From positions 1-5,283 of the forward strand of contig JAFXBH010000198.1 of NCBI GenBank assembly GCA_017521875.1: 5,283 nt of DNA, in the 5' to 3' direction. The stretch comes from Oscillospiraceae bacterium. Its GTDB lineage: Bacteria > Bacillota > Clostridia > Oscillospirales > Oscillospiraceae. The position numbers and the translations under genes were made by a program. The notes below the pieces were generated by a model. That model saw only the letters and a list, made by a program, of their open reading frames with translations. It did no database searches and was not told the origin of the DNA. Below, in pieces: positions 1-5,283 of this stretch; position 1 is the first letter of the stretch, and each line of letters begins with the position of its first letter.

Positions 1-351
1 TTTACAATGCCTGCCGGTCAGGACGGTGTCAGCACTGCTGTTGTAAAGGCAGACGGCAATCCTATTCTGCTGACAGTAAAAGCGGATGTTCCTGCTGAGG
101 ATGATAATCCCAGCAATCCCTCCGGCGGCAATAAACCTGACACTATTCCCAACAAGAAAGACGGATTGGACGGCGTAATGATTGCAGTTATTGCAGTTGC
201 CATCATCGCAGTGATTGTAATTGCTACATTTGTTGTAGTTGTTATATTGATGAGCAAGAAAAAGAAAGCGCTTTCTACAGGTGAACCTGTGGAAGCAGAA
301 CCCACCGAAGCAGAACCCACCGAAGCAGAACCCCCTACAGATACTGAATAA
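1..351 (+). CDS. C-terminal end of a membrane-anchored surface protein (gene A, 5' truncated by window)
   Basis: The frame is open from base 1 to the TAA at 349-351, giving 116 codons of a gene that begins upstream. The in-frame ATG at base 7 is not the start: Phe-Thr precede it, and the same FTMPAGQDGVSTA stretch lies deep inside gene B (from residue 776). Visible parts are the end of an Ig/FnIII-like beta module, an acidic Pro/Ser/Gly linker, a hydrophobic span encoded at about 178-252, a KKKK stop-transfer run, and an acidic tail with EAEPT repeats. Aligned with gene B 2775-3110, it differs in length only by one extra 15-bp repeat unit. The 59 residues before the span are 51/59 identical to B, but the span itself only 13/25. 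No LPxTG sorting signal is present, so anchoring is by the membrane span with the repeats inside the cell. The function of the missing ectodomain is presumably like B's (inference). Confidence 0.93.
   Translation, partial: FTMPAGQDGVSTAVVKADGNPILLTVKADVPAEDDNPSNPSGGNKPDTIPNKKDGLDGVMIAVIAVAIIAVIVIATFVVVVILMSKKKKALSTGEPVEAEPTEAEPTEAEPPTDTE
292..333 (+). repeat. 15-bp in-frame tandem repeat encoding EAEPT in the cytoplasmic tail of gene A
   Basis: The unit GAAGCAGAACCCACC occurs at 292-306 and 307-321, with a third, partial copy at 322-333 that runs into the CCTACAGATACT end of the gene. It encodes EAEPT-EAEPT-EAEPP. Gene B has one unit fewer at the equivalent place (EAENT-EAEPP), which explains the whole 15-bp length difference between the two tails. 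Because the unit is a multiple of three, gain or loss by slippage keeps the frame. Confidence 0.9.
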
Positions 352-359
352 ATTGTCCC

Positions 360-389
360 AAAAACCAGGCGCATTTGCGCCTGGTTTTT
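360..389 (+). terminator. Intrinsic terminator after gene A
   Basis: The left arm 360-372 (AAAAACCAGGCGC) is the exact reverse complement of the right arm 377-389, around an ATTT loop; the first and last loop bases could also pair. The right arm ends in five Ts, so the U-tract is part of the A/T base of the stem. It starts 8 bp after the gene A stop. A-rich and T-rich arms could let it act in both directions. The hairpin after gene B has a different stem sequence that still pairs perfectly, which supports a functional structure. Confidence 0.93.
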
Positions 390-390
390 G

Positions 391-419
391 TTGACTTTGT
401 GGGATTTTTTTGATATAAG
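391..419 (+). promoter_or_regulatory. Sigma-A-type promoter of gene B (-35 TTGACT, 17-bp spacer, extended -10 TGaTATAAG)
   Basis: The -35 box TTGACT is at 391-396 and the -10 box TATAAG at 414-419, separated by exactly 17 bp. A TG at 411-412 gives an extended -10. Both boxes match the vegetative consensus at 5 of 6 positions. The -35 box begins one base after the terminator's last T. The expected start of transcription is near 426, leaving a leader of under 30 nt. The block 391-420 is 29/30 identical to 3149-3178 ahead of gene C. No separate operator is evident, although the spacer is also conserved. Confidence 0.88.
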
Positions 420-438
420 TTAGACATAGACTTAAGAA

Positions 439-450
439 AAGGAGAAAGGA
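439..450 (+). promoter_or_regulatory. Ribosome binding site of gene B
   Basis: AAGGAG at 439-444 is followed by a second purine run, AAAGGA, at 445-450. The GGAG core is 8 nt from the ATG at 453. This fixes the start codon, which is followed directly by a good signal peptide. Confidence 0.9.
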
Positions 451-452
451 AA

Positions 453-530
453 ATGAAAAGGGTTATCGCGATATTCTTGGTGTTGACCTGTATTGCGGTT
501 TTTCTTCCTGCAGGTTCGCAGGCAGATGCC
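453..530 (+). other. Signal peptide coding region of gene B
   Basis: Residues 1-26 have a basic N-region (Lys2, Arg3), a hydrophobic core (about 4-19) and an AxA-type cleavage site, Ala24-Asp25-Ala26, predicting export by Sec and signal peptidase I. The sequence from PAG to AAVT is shared with gene C except at one residue. A Cys at position 13 lies inside the hydrophobic core, is absent in gene C, and is not a convincing lipobox. Confidence 0.88.
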
Positions 531-3110
531 GCTGCGGTTACAGAAAAACCGTTCTATGTGCTTAACTGGGTATCCATATTATGGGACGATGGAGACTTGG
601 CTTTGGATATGCCCTACTTTCTAGGCCACTATACCGAAGGTGCAACAGAGATTAGGGTTTCCTGGCGCAATTATTCTGAAATTCCGGATTTGGCAGAGGA
701 GTTGAAGGCAGAGTTTGACTACCGTTCTGAGGGCTCTCGTTATATCTTCTACCAAGCCCCCGGAGGAGCCATTTGGGAATGGCTGACAGAAGACTATGTA
801 TACTTCCACAAGGCTACACAGTATGTGGGAGAGTGGCTGGATGAATTCCTCAAAGAGTACAAGCGCATCGGCGGCAAACTGGACGGTATCCTTACGGATG
901 TGGAGTACTGGAATGGCTCCGCTTGGTTTCTGTGGACGGATGTGTTCTGTGCGAATAATCCCAATTGCTATTGGGATATTGTCAATAACCCCAATTATAA
1001 GACCGTTCTACGCCCCAGACTGGAAAAGTACGGATTTGAGTTCTTGCCGGAAAACATGCAGGACGATGTAAAGTCTGAGATTTGGACAATGTGTCCGGAT
1101 GCGAAAAACGACAAAGCGTATGAAATTTGGAATCTTGTTCTGAACGAACTGTTGACGGAATGCTTAAACGGATCTGTTTTGGATCTGATGCTGAAGTACT
1201 ATCCTGATGCTGGGTACAGCGATTATGACAGATTTGACCGCTATGGCTGGCAGAAACACTATGGCGGCAATATGACCCTTTCCGTCGGCAACACCGTTAA
1301 AGCCGGTAATGTGTCCAATACCACTTGTTATCCCGGCAGCGCACCTTGGGAGGATAAATTCAATACCTATCAAACGCCTGCAGCCTATAACAATGCTGAC
1401 TATGATGCAACAGCCTTTAGTACGGTGTTGTGGAAGGTAATGGAAAGTAAGGGCGTTAAGGAAGCCGATACCAATAACCGGTTTAACGCTTGGGTTACGT
1501 TTTACAATTATGCGCCTGCCGTGCGCGGCACTTTCGCTAACACACCCTACTATTCCGAACTGATGTACCACCTTGGCCTGTTGGATCCGGAGCCCTTTAT
1601 AGGCTACGTTATGGATGATGAAATGGCCGAATTTGGTGCCAGCAACCCTGACCCGGATGCCAGCGACCCGGATGTGGTGTGGAAAGTGATTCGGGAACTG
1701 ATGGAAGAACTGACCCGGGTAGCCGGTTACTCTGACCGGAAAACCATTCTGATTCCCGGCAATTGGAACAATGACTTTATACTCTCCGGTATGTACGCAA
1801 ACGGCAGAAACATCTGGCGTATTACCCCCGATACTTATAATGGCACCACATTGGAATCCTTCAAGGTAGAGGGGGCAGACCCCACTTTCTATATCAACGG
1901 TCAGACCGTTACCTTCCCCCAAGGTAAGATTATTGCAGATAGCGAAATTTCTAAGGTTGGCTCTTGCGGTTACTGGGTAGAGACCCCCGCTGATGTGATG
2001 CCTGTCATTACCGGCGATGCAGACCGTTATGCAAAAGATCCGTCCTTCTTAGAAGATTTTGAAGGTTACGAAAGCGGCATGCGGTTGGACAAAACCCTGA
2101 GTATCGCTTGGGATCTTATCACCGGTACTACAAAGATTCAGGACAACGGCGGTAGCAAAGCGCTGGCCCTCACCGGCTCTACCACCGTTACCAATGTGAA
2201 TTCCATCAAGAATATCACCGCAGGCGACAGTTTCGCCAAACAGCAGGTATGGGAGGTAAATGTTACCGTACCGGACAGCGGCGAACTGATTGTACTGCGC
2301 TGCGCCAGCAAGGATCTGGGCATAAAGATTGCCGATGGCAAAGCGTACTACGGCAACGATGACGACTATGCAGAAATTCCTAATGTCAGTATATCTGCCG
2401 GTGGTACATACAAAATTCAGCGAAAAGTAGACTTCCGCAATGCAGATAACTATACCAGCACCTATACTGTATATGACAGCACGGGCAAGGTGCTGGGCAG
2501 CGTGAAGAATGCGCCTATGCGCAAGGTGAATCTGCCTGTTGCCAATATGTATTTCTCTTCCAAGAAAGCAACCGGCACAGCCTACATTGATGATTATAAG
2601 ATTTACCTTGCCGGTGTAACCACAAACTTTACAGTATACGATGCAGCAACCGGGTTTGAGGTAGATGCCGGTGTATCCAGAACTGAGGATACCGCATACC
2701 GTGTGTCTTGGCTGAATGCTACCGGTAAAGATGTGGTGGCCAGAGTGTATAATGGCGACACCGTGATCAGCGAGTTTACAATGCCTGCTGGTCAGGACGG
2801 TGTTAGCACTGCTATTGTAAAGGCAGAGGGCAATCCTGTTCTGCTGACAGTGAAAGCGGATGTTCCTGCCGAGGATGATGATCCCAGCAATTCCTCCGGT
2901 GGCAATGAGCCTGATACTACCCCCAACAAGAAAGACGGATTGAACGGTGTTACAATTGCTATTATAGTTGTTGCTATTTTCGTAGTTTGTGCAATTGCTG
3001 TGTTTGCTGTGGTTATTGTGATGATGAGCAAGAAAAAGAAAGCGCTTTCTGCAGGTGAGACTGTGGAAGCAGAAAACACCGAAGCAGAACCCCCTACAGA
3101 TACTAAATAA
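453..3110 (+). CDS. Secreted, C-terminally membrane-anchored multidomain surface protein, possible glycoside-hydrolase-like (gene B)
   Basis: An 885-residue protein, the only complete family member here; I do not recognise the family. Order of parts: signal peptide 1-26 (basic MKR, hydrophobic core, AxA at 24-26); large domain about 30-520; probable jelly-roll module about 533-721, opening with DFEGYESG and closing with YIDDYKIYL; Ig/FnIII-like module about 722-803; acidic Pro/Ser/Gly linker 804-828; membrane span 833-858; KKKK 860-863; acidic tail. In the large domain the motifs LDGILTDVEY (Asp149, Glu151), SDY (Asp257), GYVMDDE (Glu390), NWNND (437-441) and ITPDT (457-461) resemble strand ends of a glycosidase-type barrel. 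Asp149, Glu151, Asp257 and Glu390 are kept in gene C, whereas Asp388 and Asp389 are not. Cys166, Cys172, Cys292 and Cys505 are also kept and may form disulfides. The enzymatic role is inference; a binding protein or a degenerate enzyme is equally possible. It has its own promoter and terminator. Confidence 0.95.
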   Translation: MKRVIAIFLVLTCIAVFLPAGSQADAAAVTEKPFYVLNWVSILWDDGDLALDMPYFLGHYTEGATEIRVSWRNYSEIPDLAEELKAEFDYRSEGSRYIFYQAPGGAIWEWLTEDYVYFHKATQYVGEWLDEFLKEYKRIGGKLDGILTDVEYWNGSAWFLWTDVFCANNPNCYWDIVNNPNYKTVLRPRLEKYGFEFLPENMQDDVKSEIWTMCPDAKNDKAYEIWNLVLNELLTECLNGSVLDLMLKYYPDAGYSDYDRFDRYGWQKHYGGNMTLSVGNTVKAGNVSNTTCYPGSAPWEDKFNTYQTPAAYNNADYDATAFSTVLWKVMESKGVKEADTNNRFNAWVTFYNYAPAVRGTFANTPYYSELMYHLGLLDPEPFIGYVMDDEMAEFGASNPDPDASDPDVVWKVIRELMEELTRVAGYSDRKTILIPGNWNNDFILSGMYANGRNIWRITPDTYNGTTLESFKVEGADPTFYINGQTVTFPQGKIIADSEISKVGSCGYWVETPADVMPVITGDADRYAKDPSFLEDFEGYESGMRLDKTLSIAWDLITGTTKIQDNGGSKALALTGSTTVTNVNSIKNITAGDSFAKQQVWEVNVTVPDSGELIVLRCASKDLGIKIADGKAYYGNDDDYAEIPNVSISAGGTYKIQRKVDFRNADNYTSTYTVYDSTGKVLGSVKNAPMRKVNLPVANMYFSSKKATGTAYIDDYKIYLAGVTTNFTVYDAATGFEVDAGVSRTEDTAYRVSWLNATGKDVVARVYNGDTVISEFTMPAGQDGVSTAIVKAEGNPVLLTVKADVPAEDDDPSNSSGGNEPDTTPNKKDGLNGVTIAIIVVAIFVVCAIAVFAVVIVMMSKKKKALSAGETVEAENTEAEPPTDTK
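1706..1742 (+). repeat. 37-bp block identical between genes B and C (other copy 4482-4518)
   Basis: Bases 1706-1742 and 4482-4518 are identical, coding for ELTRVAGYSDRK in both proteins. This is the longest perfect B/C match I found by eye. It sits in the best conserved part of the large domain, just before the IP-NWNND motif. Confidence 0.85.
2055..2615 (+). other. Probable jelly-roll / concanavalin-like module within gene B
   Basis: This codes for about residues 535-721. It opens with DFEGYESG, has a Trp at 553, alternating beta-rich stretches (for example KQQVWEVNVTV and YTVYDSTGKVLGSV), and closes on YIDDYKIYL. An opening Asp-Phe-Glu and a terminal IDD followed by a hydrophobic strand are common in laminin-G-like and carbohydrate-binding jelly-rolls. 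The assignment rests on this pattern only, not on a profile match. Gene C carries the matching region from about residue 537 to the window edge. Confidence 0.5.
2949..3107 (+). other. Membrane anchor and acidic cytoplasmic tail of gene B
   Basis: About 26 hydrophobic residues (833-858, Ile/Val/Ala-rich) are followed by Ser and four Lys (860-863), then a 22-residue acidic tail ending EAEPPTDTK. The lysines after the span predict an outside-to-inside orientation: ectodomain outside, tail in the cytoplasm. Gene A has the same layout at 178-348. There is no LPxTG motif before the span. Confidence 0.88.
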
Positions 3111-3117
3111 GTTTTAC

Positions 3118-3147
3118 AAAAAACAGGTGCATTCGCACCTGTTTTTT
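3118..3147 (+). terminator. Intrinsic terminator after gene B
   Basis: The left arm 3118-3130 (AAAAAACAGGTGC) pairs perfectly with the right arm 3135-3147 (GCACCTGTTTTTT) around an ATTC loop: 13 bp ending in six Ts. It lies 7 bp after the gene B stop. Compared with the terminator after gene A, the stem positions that differ have changed on both arms so that pairing is retained. This is the pattern expected when the hairpin itself is under selection. Confidence 0.94.
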
Positions 3148-3148
3148 G

Positions 3149-3177
3149 TTGACTTTGTGGGATATTTTTGATATAAG
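3149..3177 (+). promoter_or_regulatory. Sigma-A-type promoter of gene C (-35 TTGACT, 17-bp spacer, extended -10 TGaTATAAG)
   Basis: TTGACT is at 3149-3154 and TATAAG at 3172-3177, with a 17-bp spacer and an upstream TG at 3169-3170. It is a near copy of the gene B promoter, with one substitution in 30 bp, in the spacer. It again starts one base after the terminator's last T. The predicted start of transcription is near 3184. The leader that follows (to 3222) does not resemble the gene B leader until the RBS. Confidence 0.88.
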
Positions 3178-3207
3178 TAAATCAAAGATTTTGGCTTCAT
3201 ACATAAA

Positions 3208-3213
3208 AAGGAG
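3208..3213 (+). promoter_or_regulatory. Ribosome binding site of gene C
   Basis: AAGGAG lies 9 nt before the ATG at 3223. It settles the start of gene C, whose first 30 residues match the signal peptide region of gene B. Confidence 0.9.
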
Positions 3214-3222
3214 AGAAGAAAA

Positions 3223-3300
3223 ATGAAGACAGTTTTGGCGATACTTCTAGTGGTGACCCTTGTAGTGGCACTGATCCCTGCCGGTATGCAGGCGGATGCC
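3223..3300 (+). other. Signal peptide coding region of gene C
   Basis: Residues 1-26 comprise Lys2, a hydrophobic run of about 16 residues (VLAILLVVTLVVALIP), then GMQADA with cleavage predicted after Ala26. No Cys is present, so this copy cannot be a lipoprotein, which argues that the family is exported by signal peptidase I. Confidence 0.88.
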
Positions 3301-5283
3301 GCTGCGGTTACCAAGAAACCCTTCTATACCCTGAATATGGAACCCTTCTTTTGGGAAGAAGGGGACCTTGTGATGGATATGGTCTATTTCGGCAGTCATT
3401 TAAATACCGACCAGACAGAGGCCATCATAACATGGAATAGACAGACTGACATTGCAGCCATTGCAAAAGATCTGAAGGATGAATTTGATGCTCGCCCTGA
3501 GGGTACGCGTTACATATACATGCATTTGCCCTGCCATGTCATTAATGTAAAAAGTGGGTTAATTGAAGACTATATATTCTTTGATAAACCCACCGCAATC
3601 ATAAAAAAATGGACAGAAGAATTCATGGCAGAGTACAAACGCATTGGCGGCAAGTTGGACGGTGCCAGTGTGGATATCGAGTATATTCACGGCGATGCGT
3701 ATTATATCTGCACAGAACAGTATGAAAAGGGAAATAAAGGCTGCTATTGGGAAATTGTAAACAATCCCAAATACCGCACCGATATGCGTCCCAAACTGGA
3801 GAGAATGGGCTTTGATTTCTGGCCGGAAAGCAAGCAGGACAGTGAAAAATCTGAGATTTGGAGCATGTCTCCCCGGGTAGATGGATTTGCGAAAAACTAC
3901 TATATCTGGAATAATGCTGTGGGCGAACTTCTGACAGAGAGCATCAATGAGTCTGTCTTAGAGCCGATGCTGAAACATTATCCCGATGCATTACTCAGCG
4001 ATTACGGCAGATACGATTACTATGGCTGGCAGAAACCGTATCTGGGCAGTATCGCAACTTTATTGGGCAATGCTGTAAAAGTGGGTAATGTGTCCAGCAG
4101 ACAATGCTACCCCACCGACCCTTGGGAAAACGCCGTTGGACTCTATAAGACACCCGATGGCTATAACAACGCCAATTATATTGCATCTCCCTTTAATATG
4201 GTGTTGTGGAGAACCAACGATGTGAAGGGCATTGTGGAAGCAGATACCAACAATCGGATTAGCACATGGATTACATTCTATAATTTTATGCCCACATTGC
4301 CCGGTAGTTACTGTAACACACCCTACTATTCCGAGCAGATATACCACCTGGGTATGCTGGATCCCCAACCGTTTTTGGGCTATGTAATAGAAAGTGAAGT
4401 CGGGCAGTATGGACTTGACCATCCCGATCCCGATGCCAGCGACCCAGAAGTGGTGCGGGGCGTGATAGGGGAACTGATGGCAGAACTGACCCGGGTAGCC
4501 GGTTACTCTGACCGGAAACCCATTCGGATTCCCGCCAACTGGAACAATGACTATATCCTCTCCGGTATGTATGCCAACGGCCGCAATATCTTTAGAATTA
4601 CCCCGGATACCACAAGTGGTATGACCTTGGATGCATTTAAAGTGGAAGGGGATGATCCCACTTTCTCTATCAACGGCCAGACCGTTACATTCCCTCAAGG
4701 TAAGATCATTACCGACAGTAAGATATCCAAAGTCGGCACCTGCGGTTATTGGGTAGAAACCCCGGCCAATGTAATGCCTGTTATGACCAGCGACGCTGAC
4801 CGTTACGAGAAAGACCCCTCCTTCGTAGAAACGTTTGAGGATTTTGCCAACGGTGCAGCATTCACCGAAAATGTGACCGATGCTTGGAAGGTATCCGGAA
4901 AAACAGCCAATGTGATGAACAAGGGCGGCAGCAAGGCGTTGGCCTTTAGCGGCAATACCCGGCTGACCAATGTGAATGCGCCTAAAAATATCACCGCAGG
5001 CGACAAGTATGCCCAGCAGCAGGTATGGCAGGTAACGGTTACCGTGCCCAAGGGTGGTGAACTGCAACTGCTGAGCGCCTCCAATAAGGACTTGGGTGTG
5101 AAGATTGCCGACGGTAAGGTATATTACGACAACGGTGGTTCCTACGGGGAGATTCCCGGTGTCAGTGTAACTGCCGGTAGTACATATACCATTAAGAGAG
5201 AAGTGAATTTCACCAACGCCACCAGCGATTACGCGGTATATGATGCCAGCGGCAAGAGCCTTGGCAGTGTGAAGGGCAAGAAA
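3223..5283 (+). CDS. Paralog of gene B, secreted surface protein (gene C, 3' truncated by window)
   Basis: Reading from the ATG at 3223 gives 687 codons with no stop up to the last base, so the gene continues beyond the window. The signal peptide (1-26, cleavage after Ala24-Asp25-Ala26) is followed by the same large domain and most of the jelly-roll module. The Ig-like module, membrane span and acidic tail expected from B lie outside. Residues 401-534 match B 399-532 at 110/134 positions without gaps, but residues 37-103 match at only 28/67. Conserved acidic candidates are Asp151 and Glu153 (VDIEY), Asp260 (SDY) and Glu392 (GYVIESE). The two residues before Glu392 are Glu-Ser, where B has Asp-Asp. 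Cys163, Cys174, Cys295 and Cys507 match B's four Cys, with a longer loop between the first pair. It is transcribed from its own promoter. Function is unassigned; specificity may differ from B through the variable N-terminal part (inference). Confidence 0.94.
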   Translation, partial: MKTVLAILLVVTLVVALIPAGMQADAAAVTKKPFYTLNMEPFFWEEGDLVMDMVYFGSHLNTDQTEAIITWNRQTDIAAIAKDLKDEFDARPEGTRYIYMHLPCHVINVKSGLIEDYIFFDKPTAIIKKWTEEFMAEYKRIGGKLDGASVDIEYIHGDAYYICTEQYEKGNKGCYWEIVNNPKYRTDMRPKLERMGFDFWPESKQDSEKSEIWSMSPRVDGFAKNYYIWNNAVGELLTESINESVLEPMLKHYPDALLSDYGRYDYYGWQKPYLGSIATLLGNAVKVGNVSSRQCYPTDPWENAVGLYKTPDGYNNANYIASPFNMVLWRTNDVKGIVEADTNNRISTWITFYNFMPTLPGSYCNTPYYSEQIYHLGMLDPQPFLGYVIESEVGQYGLDHPDPDASDPEVVRGVIGELMAELTRVAGYSDRKPIRIPANWNNDYILSGMYANGRNIFRITPDTTSGMTLDAFKVEGDDPTFSINGQTVTFPQGKIITDSKISKVGTCGYWVETPANVMPVMTSDADRYEKDPSFVETFEDFANGAAFTENVTDAWKVSGKTANVMNKGGSKALAFSGNTRLTNVNAPKNITAGDKYAQQQVWQVTVTVPKGGELQLLSASNKDLGVKIADGKVYYDNGGSYGEIPGVSVTAGSTYTIKREVNFTNATSDYAVYDASGKSLGSVKGKK

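Follow-up and report, generated by a model that had tools for sequence, protein, structure and literature searches.

The best Foldseek matches of the proteins described here are GH56 hyaluronidases (bee venom, 1fcq; Ves v 2, 2atm), with which they have a TIM barrel and an Asp-x-Glu pair in common. Unlike GH56, the family is bacterial, predicted to be membrane-anchored and arranged in tandem, with extra beta domains and an activity that is only predicted. Endo H (1c8y), which belongs with the chitinases to GH18, ranks fourth in Foldseek, and in a profile alignment the family has the DG-x-x-x-D-x-E register of GH18; however, it lacks the middle Asp of the GH18 signature DxxDxDxE, and any Pfam match. 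The GH42/GH35 beta-galactosidases of clan GH-A give the highest VIA Z for the barrel, and the GH42 acid/base aligns with E151, whereas the family lacks the Asn-Glu motif of that clan and appears to have, near the end of strand 7, no acidic residue that every member keeps. Sandwiches of the CBM66, GH43 accessory and LamG types share the fold of residues 536-728, which here belong to a larger surface protein without a Pfam match for this part. Finally, bacterial hyaluronan-degrading enzymes, which PMC11669647 lists as mainly lyases (PL families), together with GH84, may have a substrate class in common with this family.

Results

The window, by which we mean the whole stretch of 5,283 nucleotides analysed, comes from a gut bacterium and contains the end of one gene (A), a complete gene (B) and the start of a third (C), all on the same strand (Table 1). 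The gaps between them (A-B 101 bp, B-C 112 bp) each comprise a hairpin, a promoter-like site and a ribosome-binding site, with no other gene. The initial annotation had described at least three tandem paralogs in one orientation with a repeat unit of 2.76 kb; open reading frames and pairwise identities bear this out, and the promoter-like sites, at 391 and 3149, lie 2,758 bp apart. The array, gene boundaries, residue conservation and neighbours were computed directly, and the folds and anchoring are model-based.

Table 1. Features of the window and of the gene B protein (residue numbers refer to B).
Feature	Positions	Strand	Basis
Gene A, 3' end with stop codon: final beta residues, linker, C-terminal TM helix and KKKK-rich tail	1-351	+	ORF
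Terminator hairpin of A, 14 pairs	359-390	+	scans
Promoter-like site of B, TTGACT-17-TATAAG	391-419	+	targeted scan; absent from generic scan listing
Ribosome-binding site of B, AGGAG	440-444	+	sequence
Gene B, complete, 885 aa	453-3110	+	ORF; model pLDDT 87.8, pTM 0.84
Signal-peptide-like N terminus, residues 1-27	453-533	+	sequence; model helix 2-17
TIM-barrel domain (predicted), residues 28-441	534-1775	+	models, fold searches
D149-V-E151, Asp-x-Glu pair following strand 4, predicted to be catalytic	897-905	+	conservation
E209, invariant acidic residue	1077-1079	+	42/42 and 30/30
Beta domain after barrel, residues 442-535, most conserved part	1776-2057	+	model, B-C comparison
CBM66/LamG-type beta sandwich (predicted), residues 536-728	2058-2636	+	fold search
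C-terminal beta domain, residues 729-803	2637-2861	+	model
Disordered linker	2862-2945	+	pLDDT < 50 at residues 808-831
C-terminal TM helix (predicted), residues 832-865, then charged tail, no LPxTG	2946-3047	+	model, alignment
Terminator hairpin of B with T run	3120-3147	+	absent from generic scan listing
Promoter-like site of C, TTGACT-17-TATAAG	3149-3177	+	absent from generic scan listing
Ribosome-binding site of C, AGGAG	3209-3213	+	sequence
Gene C, 5' part of 687 codons, encoding a signal-peptide-like start, the barrel, the beta domain and most of the sandwich; open at window end	3223-5283	+	ORF, comparison with B

The proposal that these are membrane-anchored proteins fits the signal-peptide-like start and the AlphaFold models (pLDDT 88 and 85), in which a TIM barrel of glycosidase type, the CBM66/LamG-type sandwich, additional beta domains and a linker are followed by a single predicted C-terminal TM helix. 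A TM-like segment was present in 40/40 C-terminal tails of family members (40 of 42 aligned rows, one truncated and one fused row having been dropped), and the LPxTG-like motif of sortase-anchored surface proteins preceded it in none of the 40.

The family had also been thought unrecognised and perhaps undescribed, and indeed no described match was found by sequence. Pfam glycosidase profiles matched neither B, C and 30 barrels (E up to 10) nor 42 full proteins (E 0.1); in particular, the GH56 profile PF01630 (E up to 10) and the GH18 profile PF00704 found nothing in B, C or the 30 barrels, and PF00704 nothing anywhere in the source genome. Searches against Pfam, NCBIfam, PHROGs and (by single sequence as well as by profile) the PDB gave only weak and scattered matches, which for B fell in the linker and TM tail, and the sandwich had no Pfam sequence match, though its predicted fold was that of the CBM66/LamG type. 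A barrel-profile protein search retrieved 18 proteins, mostly partial members judging by length, with no bridge among them to any named family, and, among the non-subscription papers retrieved, no title or abstract opening named the family. Among the fold matches that we set aside, GH101 and GH59 (mouse galactocerebrosidase) ranked high in full-length searches but superposed at an rmsd above 19 A, Vip3Aa superposed as poorly (19 A), and calreticulin and plant lectins reflect a common sandwich.

We conclude that these genes make up a new family of predicted surface-anchored glycoside hydrolases, expanded in tandem. Put in full, as an unnamed, tandem-expanded family of predicted surface glycoside hydrolases whose members start with a signal-peptide-like segment and are predicted to end in a membrane helix, this is the reading that we favour, tentatively and at somewhat less than an even chance.

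The candidate active site lies in the barrel. D149 and E151 follow model strand 145-148, and the pair is kept in 42/42 sequences of the full-protein alignment and 27/30 of the barrel alignment. The signature DxxDxDxE of GH18 was found in none of the 30 barrels: B has D144, D149 and E151, with Leu for the middle Asp, and other barrels have A, S, I, V, H, F, L or M there. Profile comparison placed GH18 on the barrel at 1.3% probability (P 0.039), and the match to GH42 was equally weak over more columns (P 0.044).

That GH42 alignment sets E151 on the glutamate of the GH42 NEY motif, and the VIA fold search of the barrel ranked beta-galactosidases above GH18 and GH56. These two results, the weak GH18 score, the absence of a Pfam glycosidase match and the three barrels with an incomplete pair all count against the reading that we favour. 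The barrel might be that of a GH42/GH35-like clan GH-A enzyme, retaining and with two carboxylates, in which E151 would be the acid/base and E369 or E390 the nucleophile; an N-acetyl substrate would then be unnecessary, and plant galactan or xylan side chains, for example, could be cut. We consider this unlikely, given that the Asn expected before the acid/base Glu at the end of strand 4 is never present in the 30 barrels (V, L, I, T, F or M precedes 151), that position 390, the acidic position closest to where strand 7 ends, is D/E in only 35/42 and 21/30 sequences, that E369, although conserved, lies some 20 residues beyond strand 344-348, and that 2/60 shuffles matched the GH42 profile as well.

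A further reading, which we judge rather unlikely, is that the proteins are non-catalytic glycan receptors or adhesins, the glycosidase barrel being reused as a binding platform and the tandem copies broadening attachment. The CBM66/LamG-type sandwich and predicted membrane anchor would suit such a role, as would the very long extensions of some members (at least 1,762 aa for the single member on contig C229 of the source genome; at least 2,574 aa for member L027 and 2,394 aa for member L030). Likewise, the three barrels without the full Asp-x-Glu (two lack both residues, one D149 only) still have E209 and W438. However, in proteins that only bind, one would expect the acidic pair to be lost more often than the alignments show.

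Returning to a predicted surface glycoside hydrolase, we infer secretion, catalysis, mechanism, substrate and division of labour as follows. After export, the protein would remain tethered through its C-terminal helix, and a glycan bound by the beta sandwich would be cut by the TIM barrel. E151 would likely serve as acid/base and D149 would likely orient the N-acetyl group of the substrate for substrate-assisted catalysis, as in GH56 and GH18. The symporter could then import the uronic-acid-bearing pieces released, for trimming by the beta-glucuronidase whose gene adjoins one family gene. The copies, all of which have a promoter-like site of their own, may differ in fine specificity. Because the products are predicted to be held at the membrane and to combine a sugar-cutting fold with a sugar-binding domain, the gene row would likely allow several related complex sugars to be attacked at the cell surface.

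The neighbours offer hints of a substrate. On contig C225 of the source genome, a family gene directly follows a beta-glucuronidase and the tail of a symporter. This enzyme, a neighbour and not a family member, scores under the cut-off of the NCBIfam beta-glucuronidase model; by sequence, its closest solved relatives include the gut enzymes 6MVH and 6MVG (E 0), called FMN-binding GUS in PMC9377255. A sugar-symporter and beta-glucuronidase pair followed at once by a family gene occurs in 4/8 genomes, but in three of these four the same genes also lie further upstream, so the link may reflect one inherited event. GH88, which would mark a lyase route, and GH92, which would mark an N-glycan route, were each found in 0/8 genomes, with controls positive in three; PL8 was likewise found in 0/8, but its control was silent as well, which makes that absence uninformative, and a sulfatase, which is not specific, was found in 7/8. 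The evidence on the substrate is circumstantial. The more specific proposal that these are tethered hyaluronidase-type endo-N-acetylhexosaminidases, diversified in tandem, which with beta-glucuronidase and GH20 hexosaminidase would enable hindgut bacteria to break down glycosaminoglycans or related host glycans hydrolytically, much as lysosomes do, in place of the lyase and GH88 route, appears improbable as a whole.

The initial annotation had suggested that the array may exceed the window, and further members do lie on other contigs of the source genome: a tail, a complete gene and the 5' part of another on C119, a complete gene and the start of another on C225, and the long member on C229. 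No exact end overlaps were found among the four family-bearing contigs, so that the total, the window included, is given as a range of seven to nine genes. In each of seven related MAGs there are two to ten barrel-bearing copies, with as many as five in a run, and we counted 395 relatives in all, with up to ten barrel-bearing copies per genome. A whole-alignment profile search of 394 genomes of the order, scoring at most two candidates per listed genome, flagged 93; the listed matches outside the source genome covered the tail (model positions from 752) or the first 87 positions and were dropped as composition matches. Within that limit of two candidates per genome, four other genomes of the genus had no core match (two had tail matches and two none).

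The copies have diverged considerably. The A tail is 79% identical to the end of B (90% over 29 residues, 74% over 82), and B and C share 54% identity in the barrel (413 aa), 81% in the next beta domain (94 aa) and 55% in the sandwich (150 aa). With dS between B and C at 0.87-1.87, and dN below dS in all four comparable domains, B and C are, judged by sequence, old paralogs. This divergence (dS about 0.9-1.9) argues against an assembly echo, and an assembly artefact was rejected since the copies are too different and tandem members also occur in independent MAGs.

The sandwich domains form two types whose distribution does not follow similarity in the barrel: C and the C225 member C225_1 are 89% identical in the sandwich (dS 0.38) and 57% in the barrel (dS 2.04). 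Sandwich data rejected each of the best three barrel trees, by 78-85 log units (AU <= 7.2e-4), whereas with barrel data the best sandwich tree was not rejected (AU 0.149), and a runs test on silent codons gave p values of 0.0018, 0.0063 and 0.014 as the best three of 10 pairs, the best being about 0.02 after correction. An exchange of sandwich domains between copies is suggested, one domain tree rejecting the other but not vice versa. That the array serves chiefly as a reservoir for antigenic variation or as phage decoys, in which copies recombine and vary exposed domains, is very improbable even with the two sandwich types and the rejected barrel trees in its favour, given the one-sided tree test, the corrected runs test, dN below dS wherever computable, and the fact that no switching element was noticed, albeit without a systematic search. 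Of the contexts first proposed, adhesion, glycan use and antigenic variation, we favour glycan use because of the predicted glycosidase barrel and CBM66/LamG-type sandwich and the beta-glucuronidase and symporter tail beside the C225 member; nothing specific was found for antigenic variation, against which the promoter-like site of each gene and dN below dS also speak.

The family has 395 relatives and neither a family name in the libraries searched nor an assigned function, yet its predicted fold is that of enzymes able to open up complex glycans. Should this prediction be true, the family would be one more family of glycoside hydrolases and would help to explain the feeding of uncultured hindgut bacteria; in some genomes it would be tied to a beta-glucuronidase with relatives that reactivate drug glucuronides. 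A natural experiment in enzyme diversification would also be provided by tandem copies that each have a promoter-like site.

Generic scans of the window were close to chance (12 promoters against 8.8 expected, 7 terminators against 5.3); the promoter assignment is based on where the sites lie and on their repeated occurrence upstream of family members. The generic promoter scan demands a second hexamer ending in T and so misses the B site. Upstream of 31 family starts picked by script, promoter-like sites were present in 19, terminators in 12 and Shine-Dalgarno-like sequences in all 31.

Organisation of the array

The tandem array that the initial annotation had proposed for the window is real, and its genes belong to an unnamed family whose products are predicted to be glycoside hydrolases anchored at the cell surface. 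Further members lie beyond it on contigs C119, C225 and C229 of the same genome (G000), a 1.66-Mb draft in 319 contigs that is 82% complete and 5.4% contaminated. On these three contigs and C266, the contig that forms the window, ten matched places correspond to nine gene pieces; since two pairs of pieces could each be halves of one gene, the genome holds seven to nine family genes. No exact end overlap was found between the four contigs.

Family genes in the window
Feature	Position	Strand
Gene A, 3' end	1-351	+
Gene B, complete	453-3110	+
Gene C, first 687 codons	3223-5283	+

The annotation had also raised an assembly artefact as the source of the tandem copies. This is ruled out, since genes B and C are too diverged, both in the barrel (54% identity, dS 1.20, dN 0.36) and in the sandwich (55% identity, dS 1.10, dN 0.36).

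The intergenic gaps in the window are 101 and 112 bp, and in each the order is a hairpin, TTGACT-17-TATAAG, AGGAG and ATG. By script, a promoter-like site and a terminator were found at five of six family starts in the genome. The upstream sequence of the sixth, on C225, when read directly, contains a hairpin and a TTGACT site; that of a seventh start on C225, outside the scripted set, contains a hairpin and a TTGACA site. Because a hairpin and a promoter-like site precede the family starts, each family gene looks to be its own transcription unit. A generic scan listed the first window hairpin and neither window promoter, since it accepts a second hexamer only with T as the last base. Both promoter spacers are 17 bases long and contain a T run, of seven T for B (405-411) and five for C (3165-3169); slippage there could in principle alter promoter strength.

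Copies in related genomes and probable domain exchange

Seven relatives, G394 to G400, were compared, each titled Oscillospiraceae MAG; six come from the hindgut of sheep, goat, roe deer or buffalo. Counting rows that span most of the barrel or more, with two pieces of one gene taken as one, they hold 4, 5, 4, 6, 10, 4 and 2 barrel-bearing copies, respectively; the remaining rows, being fragments, tails or composition matches, were left out. Tandem runs reach five members at most (G399, C79), the first of these being cut by the contig start. C13 of G398 has a group of four members and, on the opposite strand, a group of two, with another gene between the groups. With E 0.001 as the limit, a protein search counted 395 relatives, and several contig sizes recur among the 120 best, which are those listed. 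In three genomes (L018, L019 and L033) one member occupies the same position, behind genes that by eye resemble primase, sigma factor, cmk and ispH, and is perhaps an old fixed copy in addition to the arrays.

Domain exchange between copies is likely, judging from the sequences. Two sandwich types occur in the source genome, one in B and C119_2, the other in C, C119_3 and C225_1, whereas the closest barrel pair is C119_2 and C119_3 (73%). The three best barrel trees were strongly rejected by the sandwich data, and the best sandwich tree was not rejected by the barrel data (AU 0.149). A test of silent-codon runs was borderline, its best result among 10 pairs (p 0.0018) being located at the cut end of C119_3.

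Predicted active site

Only six acidic barrel positions reach 90% conservation or more in each of the two alignments: D144, D149, E151, E209, E369 and D428 (residues of B). With strands numbered by our reading of the secondary structure, D149-x-E151 immediately follows strand 145-148, where GH18 and GH56 enzymes carry their catalytic Asp-x-Glu. Endo H structure titles among the fold matches name the mutants D130A and E132D. Compared with a profile of 29 GH18 domains taken from relatives, the barrel profile matched over the Asp-x-Glu stretch (P 0.039, probability 1.3%), which is not significant alone; none of 60 column shuffles reached its score. Against a GH42 profile of eight sequences the matched stretch was longer and aligned E151 with the glutamate of GH42's NEY (P 0.044); this match is likewise not significant alone and was equalled by two of 60 shuffles. 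As the sequence tests fail, we place the family in no known family; by prediction, its working resembles that of known tethered glycosidases. The main rival for the barrel chemistry is a two-carboxylate mechanism, but the N-E motif is missing and strand 7 ends without a fully conserved carboxylate; for these reasons we lean towards a predicted substrate-assisted mechanism.

The full Asp-x-Glu pair is missing from three of 30 barrels (L015 867-2117, L025 6896-8110 and L023 691-1905), that of L015 lacking the Asp only; all three keep E209 and W438. They are candidate pseudo-enzymes inside arrays, and certain copies may thus be binders only.

Neighbouring genes and a candidate glycan route

A GH2 enzyme is encoded in all eight genomes (in two pieces in G399) and adjoins the family in four, the family gene starting 157 (C225), 127 (G394, L014), 139 (G395, L016) and 143 bp (G396, L032) 3' of its stop. 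A sugar symporter (PF13347) precedes it in L014, L016 and L032, that of L014 being of GPH type with a score slightly under the NCBIfam cut-off; on C225, a 71-residue tail before the enzyme resembles this symporter (BLASTP E 1e-12). L014 and L016 each carry a divergently oriented AraC-type regulator. Since L014, L016 and L032 have additional upstream genes in common, the adjacency may reflect one ancestral arrangement.

The C225 GH2 enzyme is closest to 8GES, 8GET, 6MVH and 6MVG (E 0), of which the first three are deposited as beta-galactosidases and 6MVG as a beta-glucuronidase; PMC9377255 describes 6MVH and 6MVG as FMN-binding beta-glucuronidases. By its sequence it is likely a beta-glucuronidase, graded no higher because its NCBIfam beta-glucuronidase score (570) is under the curated cut-off (950).

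GH20 was found in five of the eight genomes and GH88 in none, G000 at least being incomplete. As described in PMC11669647, bacterial hyaluronan use proceeds by lyases and then unsaturated glucuronyl hydrolase, and GH84 is also among the bacterial families named. A candidate hydrolytic route would fit.

Unusual members

Some members have very long extensions: L013 2-5287 (C229 of G000), L027 10001-17722 and L030 5239-12420. In the extension of the C229 protein, modules repeat in alternation with cysteine-rich CxxCG-type segments, and no Pfam match was found there. The L017 member (16429-21997, SIG460) lies near genes that by eye resemble a Wzz/Wzc/CpsB/CapD-type capsule cluster, and also near long proteins whose cysteine segments are similar.
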